64,000 bases of DNA, taken from assembly GCF_001693275.1 (NCBI RefSeq), contig NZ_CP016477.1:1550001-1614000 (forward strand), in the 5' to 3' direction. The notes under the pieces were generated by a model. It made no database searches and had not been told where the DNA came from. It saw nothing but the letters and a program-made list of their open reading frames with translations. Both the position numbers and the translations under genes were made by a program. This document shows positions 29,625 through 40,706 of the stretch, piece by piece. The stretch's first letter is position 1. Each line of letters starts with the position of its first letter. The stretch is from Picosynechococcus sp. PCC 7117 (GTDB lineage Bacteria; Cyanobacteriota; Cyanobacteriia; Cyanobacteriales; MRBY01).

Positions 29625-32147
29625 ATGACCATCCAGGAACGTTTGATTTGGTTGCAGGAACGCACCAGTCTCGGTTGTCTGTCGCTGGAAACCCTAGGGG
29701 CGATCGCCACGGCACTCCAAAGACAGACCCTCCCTCCCCAACAGGCCCTCAGCGAGATCGACCAACATCCCCAAGGTTTGTATATCCTGATTTCCGGGGA
29801 GGTGATCAGCCACAAAAGCGTGGCTGCACCAGAGACCAACCCCCTAACCAGAGGCAGTACGATCAATCTGCGGCCTTTACTCCTTAATGAAGCTTCCCAA
29901 GAGGCGATCGCCACCGTCACCGACACAGAAGTGTGGTTTATGCCGCGCCAACAGTGGCAAGACCTAATCCAAAACTATCCTGAAATTACCCAGGCCTTTT
30001 CCCAGGATCTCGCCCAGGAGCTGGCAGAAGTCGCCCAAGCTCTCCAACAGGAACAGCAACAGCAGGAAATTTTGCGCCCCTACCTCGTCACCAAAGCGAA
30101 ACGGGGGGTTGTGGGGAAAAGTCGCTACGCTAAACGCCTGCGGCAACAAATTCGTGAGGCGGGTACTCATGATCGATCCATTTACATTTTTGGGGAACCG
30201 GGTTTAGAAAAAGATAATTTAGCCGCCCTGATCCACTACGGTTCGCCCCGACGCCGACAGCCGATTATTAAAATCGATTGCAGCATTCTCCAAAAAAGTG
30301 GCGCTGAACTCTTTGGCCGCACCGATGGCAAAAAAGGTCTCTTGGCATGGCTGGGAAAAGGTACCCTAATCCTCAACAAAATTGAAGAATTGCCCCCGGA
30401 ACTGATCGATAAAGTCGCCACGTTAATCGAAACCCAGACCTATACCCCCATCAGTCGCCCCGGTGATCCAGAACCTGTCCCCCAACAAACGGCGGCAAAA
30501 TTGGTGGCGATCGCCGAACGACAACTCCCCGCCGTGGCCCGCCATTTTTCCGAAACGATCAAGGTGCCGCCGCTGCGGGTGCGCAAAGCAGATCTCGCGG
30601 CCCAGGTAGAATATTACACCAGCTTATTTTGCCGGGCGAAGGGCCTCGATAAACCGACCCTCACCCCCGAAGCCCTCCGTCGCCTCCAGTCCTACGACTT
30701 CCCGAACAATATCCGCGAACTGCAAAACCTGGTAGAACGAGCCATTGTTCAATCAGATCAAGGGTCAATACTCACCGAAGAAATTTTTTGGTCAGCCCAG
30801 GGGAAACAAAAACGCTTTCGCCTCAATTTACTCAATGCCTACCCTGCCTTCCGCCGCTTTCTCCGGAGTGCTTGGTGGCCCGACCGCATTAACTATGGTT
30901 TTACGGCGATCGCCTTTCCATTAATTATTGCTGTTCTATTTCTCGCCCCCCAAACCCGCGACCAAAATTTTGCGCTGAATTTCTTTTGGGCTTGGTGGTG
31001 GCCCCTGGTGCTCCTCGCCTTTCCCTTTGTCGGTCGTCTTTGGTGTGCCGTTTGTCCGTTTATGATCTACGGGGAAATTACCCAGAAAATCACCACCGAA
31101 CTCCTAAAGCGCGACCTCAAACCCTGGCCCCGTCAGCAGGCAGAAAAATGGGGCGGTTGGTTTCTCTTTGGCTTATTTGCCCTGATTTTCCTCTGGGAAG
31201 AACTGTGGGATTTACAAAATACGGCTTATCTCTCGGCTTGGTTGCTGATTATTATTACTGCCGGGGCGATGATCTGCTCGGCGATCTTTGAGCGGCGGTT
31301 TTGGTGTCGCTATCTTTGTCCCATCGGCGGCATGAATGGCCTCTTTGCAAAACTGTCGATGACAGAACTACGGGCGCAACAGGGCACTTGTTCGGCGGAA
31401 TGTAGCACCTATCAATGTTATAAAGGCGGCCCCCAAAAGGGTGAAGGCTTAGAAACGGCGGGCTGTCCCCTCTATTCCCACCCGGCCCAACTAGAGGACA
31501 ACCGCGATTGTGTACTGTGCATGACCTGTCTTAAGGCTTGCCCCCATCGATCGGTAGCGGTAAATCTACGCCCCCCAGCCATTGAACTGTGGACAACCCA
31601 CCGCCCCCGCACCTATGAAGTTGCCCTTTTACTGTTGCTGCTGGGGGGAATCTTTCTCCATCGGCTGCCAGAAATTAATCAAGTCCTGGGTTTAAATTTA
31701 GACCTCAGTCAATTTTGGCCCCACCTGGGATTGGCGATCGCCGCCTTGGGAGTACCCGCTGGAGTAGTCCTATTAACAGGGGCTGTGGTGCAATTTTTAA
31801 ACTCTCCCCCCAAGGCAAAACCCTTTTTACAATTGGCCTATGGTTATCTGCCCTTGGTTTTGGGGGGGAGCCTCGCCCATTATCTCCGTCTCGGTTTAGG
31901 GGAAGCTGGTCAAATTTTACCCGTAACCATGGCCACCTTCGGTCTCCAGGGCAGCACCTTGCCGATTGTTGTCGCCCATCCTGCCGTGATTGCCTTTCTC
32001 CAGGGTTCAACTCTAATCTTTGCAACGCTCTGTACTTTTGTGCTCACGAAAAAAATGAGTAAACAATCCTGGCGATCGCTGTTGCCCCAGTACCTAACAA
32101 GTCTTGGTCTCGCCTGGGCGATGGCTCAGATCATTGTCGGTTTGTAA
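29625..32147 (+). CDS. cNMP-like / degenerate sigma54-type AAA+ / NosR-NapH-like membrane Fe-S fusion
   Basis: An 840-residue three-part protein. Residues ~10-140 are a cNMP-type beta-roll (GLYILISGEV). Residues ~160-395 align with sigma54-activator AAA+ domains. There Walker A is GEPGLEKD (190-197) instead of GESGTGKE, Walker B is LILNKIEELP (N251-K252 instead of D-E), and the GAFTGA segment after ELFG (228-231) is deleted. NNIRELQNLVERAIV (361-375) is retained. From ~420 come several membrane helices with cysteine motifs of the NosR/NapH/CcoG type: WCAVCP (473-478), WCRYLCP (560-566), CSAECSTYQC, and one [4Fe-4S] motif CVLCMTCLKACP (629-640). ATP hydrolysis and sigma54 contact look lost. 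I infer a ligand-sensing membrane electron-transfer protein. No HTH is seen. Confidence 0.9.
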   Translation: MTIQERLIWLQERTSLGCLSLETLGAIATALQRQTLPPQQALSEIDQHPQGLYILISGEVISHKSVAAPETNPLTRGSTINLRPLLLNEASQEAIATVTDTEVWFMPRQQWQDLIQNYPEITQAFSQDLAQELAEVAQALQQEQQQQEILRPYLVTKAKRGVVGKSRYAKRLRQQIREAGTHDRSIYIFGEPGLEKDNLAALIHYGSPRRRQPIIKIDCSILQKSGAELFGRTDGKKGLLAWLGKGTLILNKIEELPPELIDKVATLIETQTYTPISRPGDPEPVPQQTAAKLVAIAERQLPAVARHFSETIKVPPLRVRKADLAAQVEYYTSLFCRAKGLDKPTLTPEALRRLQSYDFPNNIRELQNLVERAIVQSDQGSILTEEIFWSAQGKQKRFRLNLLNAYPAFRRFLRSAWWPDRINYGFTAIAFPLIIAVLFLAPQTRDQNFALNFFWAWWWPLVLLAFPFVGRLWCAVCPFMIYGEITQKITTELLKRDLKPWPRQQAEKWGGWFLFGLFALIFLWEELWDLQNTAYLSAWLLIIITAGAMICSAIFERRFWCRYLCPIGGMNGLFAKLSMTELRAQQGTCSAECSTYQCYKGGPQKGEGLETAGCPLYSHPAQLEDNRDCVLCMTCLKACPHRSVAVNLRPPAIELWTTHRPRTYEVALLLLLLGGIFLHRLPEINQVLGLNLDLSQFWPHLGLAIAALGVPAGVVLLTGAVVQFLNSPPKAKPFLQLAYGYLPLVLGGSLAHYLRLGLGEAGQILPVTMATFGLQGSTLPIVVAHPAVIAFLQGSTLIFATLCTFVLTKKMSKQSWRSLLPQYLTSLGLAWAMAQIIVGL

Positions 32148-32361: not shown

Positions 32362-32571
32362 ATGGCTACTGGTTATACTTCCAACGAATTCGGTCAACTC
32401 AACAGCTTTGCAATCGAGCCTGAAGTCTACGTTGATACAGAACATACCGCCGGCTGGACAGCCTACGCCGAAAAGTTAAATGGCCGCCTGGCAATGATTG
32501 GTTTTGTGGCGCTCATCGCAACGGAATTGATTGGTGGCGATACCCTGATCAATCTCTTGTTCCAACTCTAA
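32362..32571 (+). CDS. hli: High-light-inducible (Hli/SCP) chlorophyll-binding protein
   Basis: A 69-residue single-helix relative of plant LHC proteins. The helix has the chlorophyll-binding motif [22 protein letters not shown] (E-x-x-N-x-R). Hli proteins bind chlorophyll and carotenoid, protect photosystem II assembly intermediates and quench excess energy (family knowledge). The frame is open further upstream, but the ATG at 32362 ([11 protein letters not shown]) lies just after the purine-rich GAGG and the promoter. First gene of an apparent operon with pgr5 and a small membrane protein. Confidence 0.94.
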
Positions 32572-36221: not shown

Positions 36222-38600
36222 TTACTCTTGAATTTTTAAGACGGTCACTAAATTCAGGGCCTGAAGCTGGGAATAAATGAGCAGATTGGAGATGAGAGAC
36301 GTGACAATGACGATCAAAGCCGTCAGCCCATAGATACCGGAATTTAGGGTTAACGGTAGACGATAAAGCTCCGTATTGTAAGCTTGCACCAGTAGCCAGA
36401 GCAGCAGCACCCCCAGCCCCAAACCCAAGGGAACGGCGATGAATGTGAGCAGAGTTTGTTCCCCCAGGAGGATAAAAGCAATTTCGGTTTGGGTAAATCC
36501 CATCACCCTCAGAGTGGCTAACTCGTGGTTTCTTTCGGACAGGGCAAGGCGCGCTGAATTGTAAACCACACTGAAAGTGATAATGCAGGCAAACAGGACA
36601 ATAATGCCAGTCATAATCTGGAGGCTTTCGCCGCTAATGGCTTGGAAACTTTCTAACAGAGCTTCCCGAAACGCAATTCCTTCAATGGCTGGTAGTTGTT
36701 TTAAGGCTTGGTAAAGTTGTTCTTTCACGTGGGAGTCAATGAGAACATAGGCCCCGGAAATAACTTGCCCTTCACCCAGCATTTGATTCAGCGCTGCTAA
36801 ATTCATGTAGGCCGATAGGCCAATCGGTTCATCCACTAAGCCCATCACCCAGGTTTGTGTTTGTTGGCGTTTCCCCTCAAGGACTTCGACTCCGAGGCGA
36901 TCGCCGGGTTGAATATGGAGGATTTCCCCCAACTTTGTGCCCAAGACGAGGCCCCCTGGCGGTAAAGATACAGGTTGCAGTTGACGGTTAACGAGTTGTC
37001 GTAATTCCCCTTGGGGTTCGAGGCCGGTAATCGCCAGGCGATATTGATAGTGGCCGTGGCGTAACCGCACTGGCACCGACCGAAAAACCTCTGTCTTGAG
37101 AATGCCTGGTAAATGACGTAGGTGATAGCGGCTGCGGTAGGGCAACAGTTGATTAAACGTTAAGGTCATGTCTTCGCGCTGCACGATTTGGAATTGGATA
37201 TCCATCAGAGCCGTCATGGATCCTTGCAGGCCAAACCCCGTTAGTAAAATAGCCACAGCCACAGCAATGCCGAGGATTGATAAGCTAGCGCGGAGGGGAC
37301 GACGTTCGAGATTGCGGAGAATAATCCGTCCGGCTGGCGAAAAAAACCGTTGTAAGCCCAATCTTTCGACTATGGTGGCGCGAAATGTCACGGGTTGTTT
37401 GGGTCGCATGCCCTCGGCTGGGGGCAAGAGAATCGCTTCCCGTACCGCCATCAATCCGCCAATACAGGCCGCACCACCACTAATAAGCAAAGCGGTGATG
37501 ATAAGCAGGGCACTGGCCTCGTAACGCAGGAAGGGAAAATGGAAAAAGTCTGCGTATAGTTGGGTTAAACCTTGTCCGAGCCAAAGTCCGCAGGATAATC
37601 CCAAAACAGCACCACCACTAAAAACCAGCAACATGAATTTGAGGTAATGCCAGCCCACTTGGACATTGGTATAGCCAAAGGCCTTGAGCACGGCAATTTG
37701 TCCCCTTTGGATGGCAATCAGGCGGGAGATTAAAATATGCAGCAAAAAAGCGGCGATCGCCAAAAAGATTGTCGGTAGGATCGTGGCAGAGACTTCTAAA
37801 CTCTGAATCTCATCGCTCACAATCCGGTGGGAGAACTGATCCCGGCGACCATAGGCCCCCAAGCCACCATAGCCTTCGAGGAGGTGATCTAACTGGGTAA
37901 TCACGGCCCGTTCATTGGCCCCAGGAGTCAACGTGAGCACCACGCTATTAAAAGCACCATCAAGGCCAAAAGCATGACTTAAGGCGGTTTCGTTGGCCCA
38001 GAGAATGCCAAAACGTTTGTCGTCTGGGTAAATATTTCCCCCGGAAACCGCATAGATATATTCAGGGCTGAGGGCAATGCCCGTGACCCGGAGGTTTTGC
38101 CAGCGACCATTGAGAATTGCCCCCAGGCGATCGCCCACTTGGATCTGATTGGCTTTGGCAAAGGCCTCACTGATGAGCACTTCCTCTGGTTGTTGAGGAT
38201 CGGGAAAAGTGCCTGGACTGCGCAAAAACAAACCATTGAGCATCCCCTCGCGTTTAGGAGGCAGGGAAATTAACCGCGCTGTGGCCGGTTCTAAGAGTCC
38301 TGGTACATTGAGGGTGATATCAGCGACAATTCGGGTTTGTACTTCCTGAACTGCGTTGATGGCGGCAATTTGCGATTGTAGGTTTTGGGGCGCACGCTTC
38401 AGTTCCGCAAACACTTCCCCAAACCGATAGCGTTCATAGTAGGCCATCTGGGTCAGCACCAGGGAATGGTAAGCACTGAGCATCATCACAAAACAAGCAA
38501 TGCCACAGGCCACCACGAGGGCGATCGCCAAAAGTTGACCCCACTGGGCCTGTAGGTCTCGCCATAACTTTCGATCCAGCGGTGCAACCATCCCTACCAC
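36222..38600 (-). CDS. ABC exporter permease with two FtsX domains
   Basis: A 792-residue permease of the MacB/LolCE-like superfamily. It has an N-terminal membrane helix, a large extracytoplasmic domain (about 50-270), three helices of a first FtsX domain (about 275-420), a second anchor and extracytoplasmic domain (about 440-660), and a C-terminal FtsX domain with [20 protein letters not shown]. The last gene of a three-gene exporter: its start overlaps the ATPase stop by 7 bases, indicating translational coupling. Probably a lipid, glycolipid or peptide exporter working with the adaptor two genes upstream. Confidence 0.92.
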
Positions 38601-39310
38601 TCCAAAAGCAATGGTGATTGTTTAATCGCGTTCGTTTCGATGGCGACAATTTCCCCACTACGCATCCGCAAGACCCGGTCGGCCATGGCCGCAATCCCGG
38701 CATTATGGGTAATTACGGCGACGGTGGTGCCCAGGTCTCGATTAATCTGTTCGAGCACTTGCAGCACCCGTTTCCCGGTTTGAAAATCTAAGGCTCCCGT
38801 CGGTTCATCGCAGAGCAAAACCTCCGGTTGTTTGGCGATCGCCCGGGCGATCGCGACCCGTTGTTGCTCGCCCCCCGATAGTTGAGCCGGGAAATGATCG
38901 AGGCGATTCTCTAAACCCACTAAGGTCAAAGCCTCCGTTGGTGCCATGGCATGGGCCACCAGATCCGTTACGAGGGCCACGTTTTCGGCGGCGGTCAGAC
39001 TTGGGATCAAATTATAAAATTGGAACACAAAGCCCACATGGTTGCGGCGGTAACGGGTGAGTTGCGCTTCATTAGCGGTGGTGAGACTTTGGCCCCGAAA
39101 AAAAATTTCGCCCGTACTCGGAATATCTAAACCCCCCAAAATATTTAGCAAGGTTGATTTGCCGCTCCCCGAAGCGCCCAACAGCACGACAAATTCCCCC
39201 TCGTATAATTCTAAATCGATATTTTTTAGGGCTTGTACGGCCACATCGCCGATGTAATAGGTCTTGGAAAGGTGTTGAATCCAAAAAAGAACAATGGGTG
39301 AGTCGGTCAT
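38594..39310 (-). CDS. ABC exporter ATPase (MacB/LolD/DevA type)
   Basis: A 238-residue ATPase from the Met at 39310 ([22 protein letters not shown]). Walker [14 protein letters not shown]-loop [18 protein letters not shown], signature [15 protein letters not shown] and Walker [13 protein letters not shown] are all intact. It powers the double-FtsX permease encoded immediately downstream. The extended frame to 39343 would overlap the adaptor gene by 20 bases; the 39310 start leaves 13 bases after the adaptor stop. Confidence 0.94.
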
Positions 39311-39323
39311 AATTATTGCCCCC

Positions 39324-40706
39324 CTAGTTTGTCGGCGCTGCACGGTCTGCTTGGGGCTGTACTCGACGCCCAGTTTGAATATCTCCAGAGGGATAAAGGA
39401 TCACTTGATCATTGGCAGCTAAACCGCTTTTGACTTGGGCATTTTGTTCCGTTTTGTGGCCAATCTCCACCGCCACCGCTTGGGCCTGTCCCGCTTCCAT
39501 GAGAAACACACACCATTGCTCATCGCAGCGAAATAGGGCGCTAAGGGGCACCTGCAATACATCTTCGGCTTGCCAAACCACGATCTGAGTTTCGACCCGA
39601 TATTGATCGCCCAGGTTGGCGGGAATGTCATCGAGGCTAACCACCACATTCACCCGTTGTTCTTCGACGCCGAGGGCCGACACTTTTGTAAAAGCCGCTG
39701 GTTCAAGGCGTTTCACTTGGCCCGTCAAAGGGCGATCGCCACCCCATTGGTCGATGATGACGGGATTTCCGGGTTGAATCTGGGTCGCTTCACTAGAGAG
39801 TACATCCACCATCACCGCTAAATTTTGTAGATCTCCAAGCTCTAGCAGGGGCTGTCCCGCCTCCAGATATTGGTAATTTTTTTGGTAGAGACGCAGCACT
39901 TGACCACTGATGGGCGCTTTGATCGCGGTGCGTTGGACTTGGTCGGTGCGGTTGGCAAGCTCTGCCTCTAAACTGCGAATTTGGGCATCATAAACTTCGA
40001 GCAAATAATCTGGATCCTGTTGGGCGGCCCGCAGTTCATCCCGTGCGGCGATCGCCTCTTGCAGATTCGCCTGGGCTTGGTTCAGTCTTTGTTGCGCCAC
40101 TTCTGAATTTTGGGCGATCGCCTTGGTATTCAGTGCCAATGTTTCCAGCGCTTGTTTCGAGATGGCCCCATTGCGGTAGAGAAATTCCCCCCGTTGTTGT
40201 TCCTGTTGCGCTTGGATGAAACGAATTCTCAATTCCGTGGCGATCGCCTGATCTGCTCCAATTTCCGCTTCAACCGCCTTGATCTTGGCTTCTGCTTGGG
40301 TCAAACTTTCTGTCTTCGGTCGGAGGGTGGCAACGCCTGTTTTTTCGGCTTGGAGGGCATTGATTTGGGCCAAGATTGCCGACACATCATTATCAAATTC
40401 GAGGGGATCAATCTGGACGATTATTTGATCCTGACTCACCGGATCACCGACCTCAAGATCCAGCCGGGGCACATAACCTGCAACGGAGGTAGACACCAGG
40501 TAGCGCTCCTCAAGGTAGGTCTGTCCTTCCTCAATGACCATCACTTGCAAAGGCCCCGGTTTAATGGTCACCACTTCTACCAGAATCGGTTTTGGGCGGA
40601 AGAGGACAACACAAATTCCAGCAACGGCGATAATCCCCAAACCATACAGCCATGGTTTGAGCTGAAGGTCTAAAACTTTTGAGGATGTGACAGCGTTTGT
40701 GGCCAC
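39324..40706 (-). CDS. HlyD-family membrane-fusion protein of the ABC exporter
   Basis: A 460-residue adaptor. The N-terminal anchor ([18 protein letters not shown]) is followed by a first lipoyl half ([20 protein letters not shown]), a long Gln/Ala/Glu-rich coiled-coil hairpin (about 120-260), a second lipoyl half ([19 protein letters not shown]) and beta-barrel domains. It should bridge the inner-membrane ABC complex to an outer-membrane factor of the TolC kind, which is not encoded nearby. First gene of the adaptor-ATPase-permease operon. The gene order is like DevBCA of heterocystous cyanobacteria, although the permease here has two FtsX domains. Confidence 0.93.

Follow-up and report, generated by a model that had tools for sequence, protein, structure and literature searches.

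What does an AAA+ domain of the sigma54-activator type do in a cyanobacterium whose own genome has no match to the sigma54 factor RpoN? The question is raised by a gene in a 64,000-nucleotide stretch of Picosynechococcus sp. PCC 7117 DNA (contig NZ_CP016477.1, positions 1,550,001 to 1,614,000 of the forward strand; hereafter, the window), which encodes an 840-residue protein combining a cyclic nucleotide monophosphate (cNMP)-type domain, an AAA+ domain related to bacterial enhancer-binding proteins (bEBPs) and a polytopic membrane module with [4Fe-4S]-type cysteine sets. An initial annotation of the locus had called the AAA+ domain dead and proposed that a transcription-activator ATPase had been reused as a sensor or scaffold that could control membrane electron transfer. 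The analysis reported here upholds the reuse: judging from the sequences, it is well supported that a sigma54-activator ATPase serves outside sigma54 transcription, because the sigma54-contact loop and the Walker B glutamate are missing throughout and the members scanned show no DNA-binding domain. We further infer that the head of the protein controls electron transfer, and favor, with a probability of about one half, a membrane Fe-S protein for electron transfer that is controlled by a nucleotide-binding, non-hydrolyzing pseudo-AAA+ head acting as a switch or scaffold.

A conserved fusion encoded in a single frame

The open reading frame (ORF), Pfam and NCBIfam agree on the three-part fusion described in the initial annotation (Table 1). 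In the window protein, the Pfam family Fer4_5 matches two stretches, the best at residues 538-577 (E = 5e-9), and the NCBIfam NapH/MauN model matches residues 466-645 (E = 6e-13). For comparison across the family, 155 loci, 151 of them with a tblastn match, were reduced to 129 proteins, including that of the window, by removal of frames shorter than 640 aa, identical proteins and loci L001 and L006; addition of two plasmid proteins gave a set of 131. The aligned proteins are kin, and the counts given below are therefore not independent events. The 131 proteins fall into three clades, A (n = 112, including the window protein), B (n = 12) and C (n = 7).

The AAA+ domain and the Fe-S module lie within one frame in 129/129 aligned proteins, a set restricted to frames of at least 640 aa, which thereby excludes split or damaged copies such as those in genomes G205, G255 and G282. 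The possibility that the locus comprises two proteins or a frameshift was rejected, given that each of the 129 proteins has the first eight Fe-S cysteines in frame with the P-loop lysine. Split or frameshifted copies, either pseudogenes or sequencing errors, are found at G205:C175:3177-5713 (clade B) and G255:C1:2174894-2176853 (clade C).

Table 1. Features of the fusion protein and their coordinates in the window
Feature	Residues	Position	Strand	Basis and remarks
Fusion protein, single ORF	1-840	29625..32147	+	ATG start; 840 aa
CAP/cNMP-binding-fold domain	34-118	29724..29978	+	Pfam cNMP_binding, E = 2.9e-9; without the CRP cAMP-contact residues
Long helix from cNMP-fold to AAA+ domain	120-153	29982..30083	+	AlphaFold2 secondary structure
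AAA+ alpha/beta domain, bEBP type	163-302	30111..30530	+	Pfam Sigma54_activat, 7e-14; fold match to NtrC1, FleQ and PspF
Degenerate Walker A, GEPGLEKD	190-197	30192..30215	+	Alignment; K196 invariant across the family
Site of deleted L1 loop (PspF GAFTGA)	232-238	30318..30338	+	Alignment to PspF
Degenerate Walker B, LILNK replacing LFLDE	248-252	30366..30380	+	Alignment to PspF
AAA+ lid	318-388	30576..30788	+	Pfam AAA_lid_14, 8e-14; D323, N362 and E365 invariant
NapH-like four-helix membrane core, transmembrane helices (TM) 1-4	about 417-554	30873..31286	+	Predicted topology: helices and K/R distribution
Membrane-edge motif 1, CAVCP	C474, C477	31044..31058	+	129/129
Membrane-edge motif 2, CRYLCP	C561, C565	31305..31322	+	129/129
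Bi-cluster ferredoxin-like segment		31389..31544	+	C589, C593, C598 and C614 in 129/129; C629, C632, C635 and C639 in 128/129
Extra C-terminal TM bundle, TM5-TM9	663-838	31611..32138	+	Helices and conservation; the stand-alone Deinococcus relative also aligns

Loss of the motor motifs and retention of the P-loop lysine

The motifs of the AAA+ domain were assessed against those of Escherichia coli PspF, with counts taken over the 131 aligned proteins. Compared with PspF, the window protein has the Walker A sequence GEPGLEKD (G41 replaced by E) and LNK in place of LDE in Walker B, and lacks the GAFTGA loop and the R162 region. The absence of GAFTGA and the replacement of the Walker B pair, both pointed out in the initial annotation, hold in the window protein, and the orthologue survey that it had suggested extends the loss to the whole family: F85 and T86 are deleted in 131/131 proteins, and the Walker B glutamate (E108) is kept in 0/131, with asparagine at this position in 104/112 proteins of clade A and 12/12 of clade B, and aspartate in 4/112 of clade A. 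The R162 region, corresponding to the first arginine finger, is likewise deleted in 131/131, and an arginine aligns at PspF position 168 in 46/112 proteins of clade A and 1/7 of clade C, within an uncertain stretch of the alignment. The Walker B aspartate (D107) is kept in 0/112 proteins of clade A, where it is asparagine in 110/112, in 9/12 of clade B and in 5/7 of clade C. The glutamate-for-glycine change in Walker A, in contrast, is true of the window protein but not of the family as a whole: the final glycine of Walker A persists in 16/112 proteins of clade A (replaced in the other 96), in 12/12 of clade B, where the P-loop reads GKT throughout, and in 0/7 of clade C.

The P-loop lysine (K42 in PspF, K196 in the window protein) is kept in 131/131 proteins. 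Furthermore, the pattern of motif loss is itself conserved, with GEPGLEKD present in 79/112 clade A proteins and asparagine prevailing at D107; the domain has therefore not been decaying freely. In bEBPs, losing such residues should stop both ATP hydrolysis and contact with sigma54. From the motifs, the head is unlikely to hydrolyze nucleotide but possibly still binds it. The description of the domain as dead thus probably fits hydrolysis, but goes too far in view of the invariant lysine, the intact GKT of clade B and the Walker B aspartate in most proteins of that clade.

Structure prediction combined with the PspF alignment, the other check that had been suggested, found the bEBP-type AAA+ fold retained with its motifs lost. 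The AlphaFold2 model was built from 62 sequences (mean predicted local distance difference test score, pLDDT, 82; predicted template modeling score, pTM, 0.54, at which the relative placement of domains is unreliable). Within it, residues 157-391 fit the AAA+ domains of FleQ (Z 24.1, root-mean-square deviation (rmsd) 2.5, 227 residues aligned), NtrC1 and PspF, and the TM-score against the ATP-bound Walker B mutant of NtrC1 (3m0e) is 0.81. In other frames of the genome, PF00158 gave four further, weaker matches (24.7-32.4 bits); this profile is loose, as all 14 control genomes match it.

A helix-turn-helix (HTH) or other DNA-binding family was found in 0/50 scanned members (Pfam, E 0.01) and in 0/8 further proteins of clades B and C. 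The 50 members, drawn from the 129 proteins, comprise 47 of clade A, 3 of clade B and none of clade C, and the second scan added 4 of clade B, one of them from a plasmid, and 4 of clade C.

The N-terminal domain is degenerate in a different way. Residues 1-129 of the model fit 5v4s, a cyclic-nucleotide-gated channel (Z 16.8, rmsd 2.1, 127 residues aligned), but the equivalents of CRP Glu72 and Arg82, which we take to be the cAMP-contact positions in CRP numbering, are glutamate in 0/108 and arginine in 0/108 aligned proteins. Because both positions are replaced in all 108, cAMP is unlikely as the ligand; another ligand, or none, is possible. The label cyclic-nucleotide-type given in the initial annotation is thus valid for the fold only. 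A cNMP match is missing from 4/4 clade C proteins and 6/50 other scanned members that retain the AAA+ and Fe-S parts, and the domain is therefore dispensable.

Sigma54 is absent from the genome and nearly absent from the phylum

As the initial annotation had expected, RpoN was not found in the window's own genome, with 0 matches to PF04552, a profile that does match in E. coli, Bacillus subtilis, Caulobacter and Bacteroides, used as controls. Across the phylum, PF04552 matched in 9/284 genomes at E<=0.001 and in 2/284 over the Pfam cut-off. The stronger of the two matches (genome G123, C1:411956-412339, minus strand, locus L157) lies in a 207-aa frame and covers profile positions 33-159 of 160 (E = 2e-16). 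A complete RpoN would not fit in this frame, and the match corresponds to the sigma54 DNA-binding domain. The same genome encodes an orthologue of the fusion protein that is as degenerate as that of the window (GEPGLEKD, LVLNNI). According to excerpts of an earlier survey, sigma54 and its activators are absent from 29 cyanobacteria (PMC3162934).

The membrane Fe-S module is the most constrained part of the protein

All 12 Fe-S cysteines are kept in 128-129 of the 129 proteins, including those of the two CX2-3CP motifs in the polytopic core. The mean pairwise identity within clade A reaches 80% in the Fe-S core (residues 395-665), compared with 59-62% in the AAA+ parts and 41% in the cNMP domain, and identity in the core is still 58% between clades A and B and 54% between A and C. 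Of 58 invariant positions, 50 fall within residues 395-665, 8 within residues 1-394, K196 among them, and 0 after residue 665. The C-terminal bundle nevertheless contains well-conserved residues (E760 in 125/129, H679 in 120/129 and H752 in 108/129 proteins). In the window's own genome, the fusion protein is the only match to PF12801.

Hydropathy, predicted helices and the distribution of lysine and arginine suggest nine TM helices and a cytoplasmic position for the head, the two CX2-3CP motifs and the ferredoxin-like cysteines. The conserved cysteine sets are probably loaded with Fe-S clusters. In the literature drawn on here, NapH and NosR figure as electron-transfer proteins (PMC5928378, PMC8238504), NapH-like proteins as likely electron conduits, some of them from quinol (PMC8238504, PMC5928378), and CcoG as a cupric reductase (PMC8267372).

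A protein of Deinococcus ficus (WP_027463891.1) corresponds to the membrane module by itself (28% identity over 422 residues, E = 1e-36), so a headless form of the module is possible. At its start, the Deinococcus gene overlaps another gene, whose product is a His-rich protein of 308 aa without a Pfam match (L163:5042-5968).

Distribution of the family and its clades

The protein has a match at E<=0.001 in 128/291 sampled genomes of the phylum and at E<=1e-100 in 71/291. A scan of contigs, one genome per species, which detects close relatives only, yielded 107 relatives, of which 80 were kept, every one with a cyanobacterial name, and 27 were not. Fusions outside Cyanobacteria were not found among 72,556 plasmid records: only two records cover at least 80% of the protein, both cyanobacterial. 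The fusion is already present in databases, under generic or misleading names; the member on an Aulosira plasmid, for instance, is labeled 'nitrogen assimilation regulatory protein'. A functional paper on the family was not found in the open-access full text of PubMed Central (PMC).

Clade B proteins share about 36-42% identity with the window protein, and all seven clade C proteins, which lack the cNMP domain, come from one family (f25). In a maximum-likelihood tree of the membrane module, computed from 26/112 proteins of clade A, the 12 of B, the 7 of C and the one from Deinococcus, clades B and C each form one group with 100/100 support. L133, a clade A protein, clusters with B, and the length of the Deinococcus branch prevents reliable rooting. 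Some genomes, e.g., G114 and G076, carry members of both A and B.

Gene neighborhoods

In the window, the neighbors of the fusion gene are an oppositely oriented aldo/keto reductase gene and, 3' of the fusion gene on the same strand (32362-32571), a gene for a small chlorophyll-binding-type protein resembling the high-light-inducible proteins (HLIP-like). Farther along, at 36222-39899 on the minus strand, genes for an FtsX/MacB-type permease and an ABC ATPase, with an upstream ORF that possibly encodes a membrane-fusion subunit, presumably represent a DevBCA-type exporter.

Partners of clade A were sought by clustering the ORFs around 107 loci and the window. By inspection, clusters 0-2 resemble generic ABC, tetratricopeptide repeat and signaling families. 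The most recurrent other cluster (cluster 3), which from inspection is glycosyltransferase-like, is found at a distance of one or two ORFs in 10/108 loci. In 6 of these the genes are of one kind and lie upstream; in the other 4, which are Pseudanabaena-type loci, they are of another kind and lie on the opposite strand. We read this association as lineage synteny. The upstream glycosyltransferase-like gene is seen at L068:4699-5886 and at L059, L064, L070, L110 and L150. ArsR-type regulators (cluster 17) occur near L043, L050, L114, L126 and L129, at varying distances and with no evident link.

Clade B has a different setting. A cysK gene lies within 600 bp downstream on the same strand in 6/11 clade B loci (4/9 in genomes, 2/2 on plasmids), compared with 0/74 loci of clade A (Fisher p = 1e-6 with the plasmids and 7e-5 without) and 0/6 of clade C. 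Single clade B loci variously contain genes for DsrE, rhodanese, glutaredoxin-type, TauE, Rrf2 and MerR-type proteins and further petC and psbA genes; a Cu/Zn-efflux-like gene nearby scores below the model cut-off, and HdrABC-like genes at L121 and HemN-like genes at L115 were recognized by sequence inspection only. These neighbors therefore suggest sulfur, low-oxygen or metal conditions. Two plasmid islands, L161:8887-12524 (Pseudanabaena galeata pPg_03) and L162:8902-12593 (Aulosira laxa plasmid2), combine the clade B gene with cysK, further copies of psbA and petC, and sulfur/redox genes and are possible sulfide or low-oxygen photosynthesis islands.

In clade C, zur follows the gene in four examined genomes of one genus (L125, L127 and L130, and 584 bp on in L132). 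The Zur protein of L127 matches PDB entry 7NE9 (SynZur; E = 9e-66), which is identified in PMC9337993 as Zur of WH8102, and the other three are 75-92% like that of L127. At L127:4675-7961, and similarly at L125 and L130, in this picocyanobacterial genus, a short-chain dehydrogenase gene, the clade C gene and an abutting zur are arranged like an operon. In one other genus, znuBC lies beside the clade C gene (L126, L129 and L182). Among 30 clade C loci (L177-L206), 3 have Zur, 3 have ZnuB/C and 24 have neither, within flanks of at most 1.5 kb, several of the 24 being shortened by contig ends; L177-L179 duplicate three of the zur loci, and L180 and L181 two of the znuBC loci. We regard the zinc link of clade C as a lead only.

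A proposed reading: a pseudo-AAA+ head on an electron-transfer protein

In the reading that we favor, the protein would reside in the inner or thylakoid membrane as an Fe-S protein of the NapH/NosR/CcoG type with a large cytoplasmic regulatory head. Its membrane core would carry the two CX2-3CP motifs and two [4Fe-4S] clusters at the cytoplasmic face and pass electrons from a cytoplasmic or quinone donor to an acceptor that lies at the membrane or on its other side. The head, composed of a CAP-fold sensor, the long helix and the bEBP-derived pseudo-AAA+ domain, would receive an input in the form of energy, redox or ligand state; the pseudo-AAA+ domain would bind nucleotide without turnover, and the occupancy or oligomerization of the head, or both, would switch or scaffold the redox module. 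Here we infer the nucleotide binding, the direction of regulation and any link to thiols, sulfide or metals. A more specific version is tentative: the bEBP motor may have become a nucleotide-gated, non-hydrolyzing head that works as an energy switch on membrane electron flow, responding to ATP/ADP or a signaling nucleotide, with a partly plasmid-borne paralogue tuned to sulfide or low oxygen.

Several observations count against the favored reading. Conservation of the lysine alone is insufficient proof of nucleotide binding. The NapH models score the module far below their cut-offs (48.8 bits versus 213 for TIGR02163; 35.4 versus 234 for NF007013), of the 281 PDB matches (E up to 10) that Foldseek returned for the membrane module alone, not one reached E<=0.001 (best E 0.12), and the ferredoxin segment is modeled at a pLDDT of about 40. 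No widely shared neighbor emerged among the 107 clade A loci and the window. Cytochrome bd, the sole candidate partner family tested phylum-wide, was rejected: CydA is present in 42/71 gene-bearing genomes, 32/74 genomes with CydA lack a strong match to the fusion protein, and CydA is absent from the window's own genome. Finally, FMN_bind has no match in that genome; therefore, an extracytoplasmic flavin route like that of NosR or PceC is not evident there.

In bEBPs, the HTH domain is placed after the AAA+ lid; in the fusion protein, a membrane segment occupies this place, no DNA-binding family was recognized in the 50 members or in the 8 additional clade B and C proteins, and conservation is far stronger in the Fe-S core than in the head. 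All this makes it very improbable that the protein is a membrane-tethered regulator of transcription at sigma70 promoters with the Fe-S module as its redox sensor, even though its best sequence match in the PDB is VpsR and GAFTGA-less bEBPs that regulate transcription by DNA binding and act on sigma70 promoters are on record, according to excerpts of PMC10274813. Quite improbable, too, is a head that binds no nucleotide and serves purely as a structural or oligomerization platform, the P-loop lysine being kept for folding. The replacement of the last Walker A glycine in 96/112 proteins and of D107 by asparagine in 110/112 proteins of clade A would suit such a platform, but K196 is invariant in 131/131 proteins while most of the head drifts, and clade B has GKT in 12/12.

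A third explanation, in part compatible with the favored one, shifts the emphasis to the substrate: the protein would be a CcoG-like reductase in metal or thiol homeostasis, reducing, e.g., Cu(II) or persulfides and disulfides, with a head that senses metal or sulfur status. We consider this somewhat unlikely. It draws on the cysK genes downstream of clade B (6/11 versus 0/74 in clade A), on the sulfur, redox and metal genes in individual clade B loci, on zur or znuBC beside some clade C genes and on the His-rich protein gene overlapping the start of the Deinococcus module gene. However, 24/30 clade C loci show neither zur nor znu, clade A in general is without such context, neighborhoods may reflect lineage hitch-hiking, and no metal-binding site was identified.

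Relation to known systems

The fusion protein is an example of a bEBP AAA+ fold that has persisted in a phylum essentially without sigma54. Here the fold is joined to a membrane redox protein; it no longer has the parts for catalysis and sigma contact, whereas the lysine of its nucleotide site is invariant. Should the head gate the redox module, nucleotide or energy status would act directly on membrane electron flow in cyanobacteria; to our knowledge, no NapH, NosR or CcoG system is known to have such a link. Database labels such as 'nitrogen assimilation regulatory protein' are corrected accordingly.

On the regulatory side, the protein shares with the bEBPs NtrC, PspF, NifA, FleQ and VpsR the AAA+ fold, the lid, the P-loop lysine and N362 and E365 of the GN..EL region, but lacks GAFTGA, the Walker B glutamate, the first arginine finger and the HTH domain, is anchored in the membrane and is encoded in a genome without an RpoN match. 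It has the L1 loop deletion in common with the GAFTGA-less bEBPs (Caulobacter and Rhodobacter NtrC, VpsR); unlike these DNA-binding regulators, it shows no DNA-binding domain, and its Walker B pair is gone as well.

On the membrane side, it resembles NapH/MauN (PF12801, TIGR02163), NosR, PceC and CcoG in the four-helix core with two CX2-3CP motifs and in the two [4Fe-4S]-type cysteine sets that follow the core and are predicted to be cytoplasmic. It differs in falling below both the equivalog and the subfamily cut-offs of NapH, in its additional C-terminal TM bundle, in the cytoplasmic head of cNMP-fold and AAA+ domains, in a widened first cluster motif (CX3CX4CX15CP) and in the absence of FMN_bind from its genome. 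The Deinococcus ficus protein shares the whole membrane module, including the C-terminal bundle, and is headless. Every part of the fusion is already known, and the protein is to be filed with the NapH-type membrane Fe-S proteins rather than with the bEBPs.

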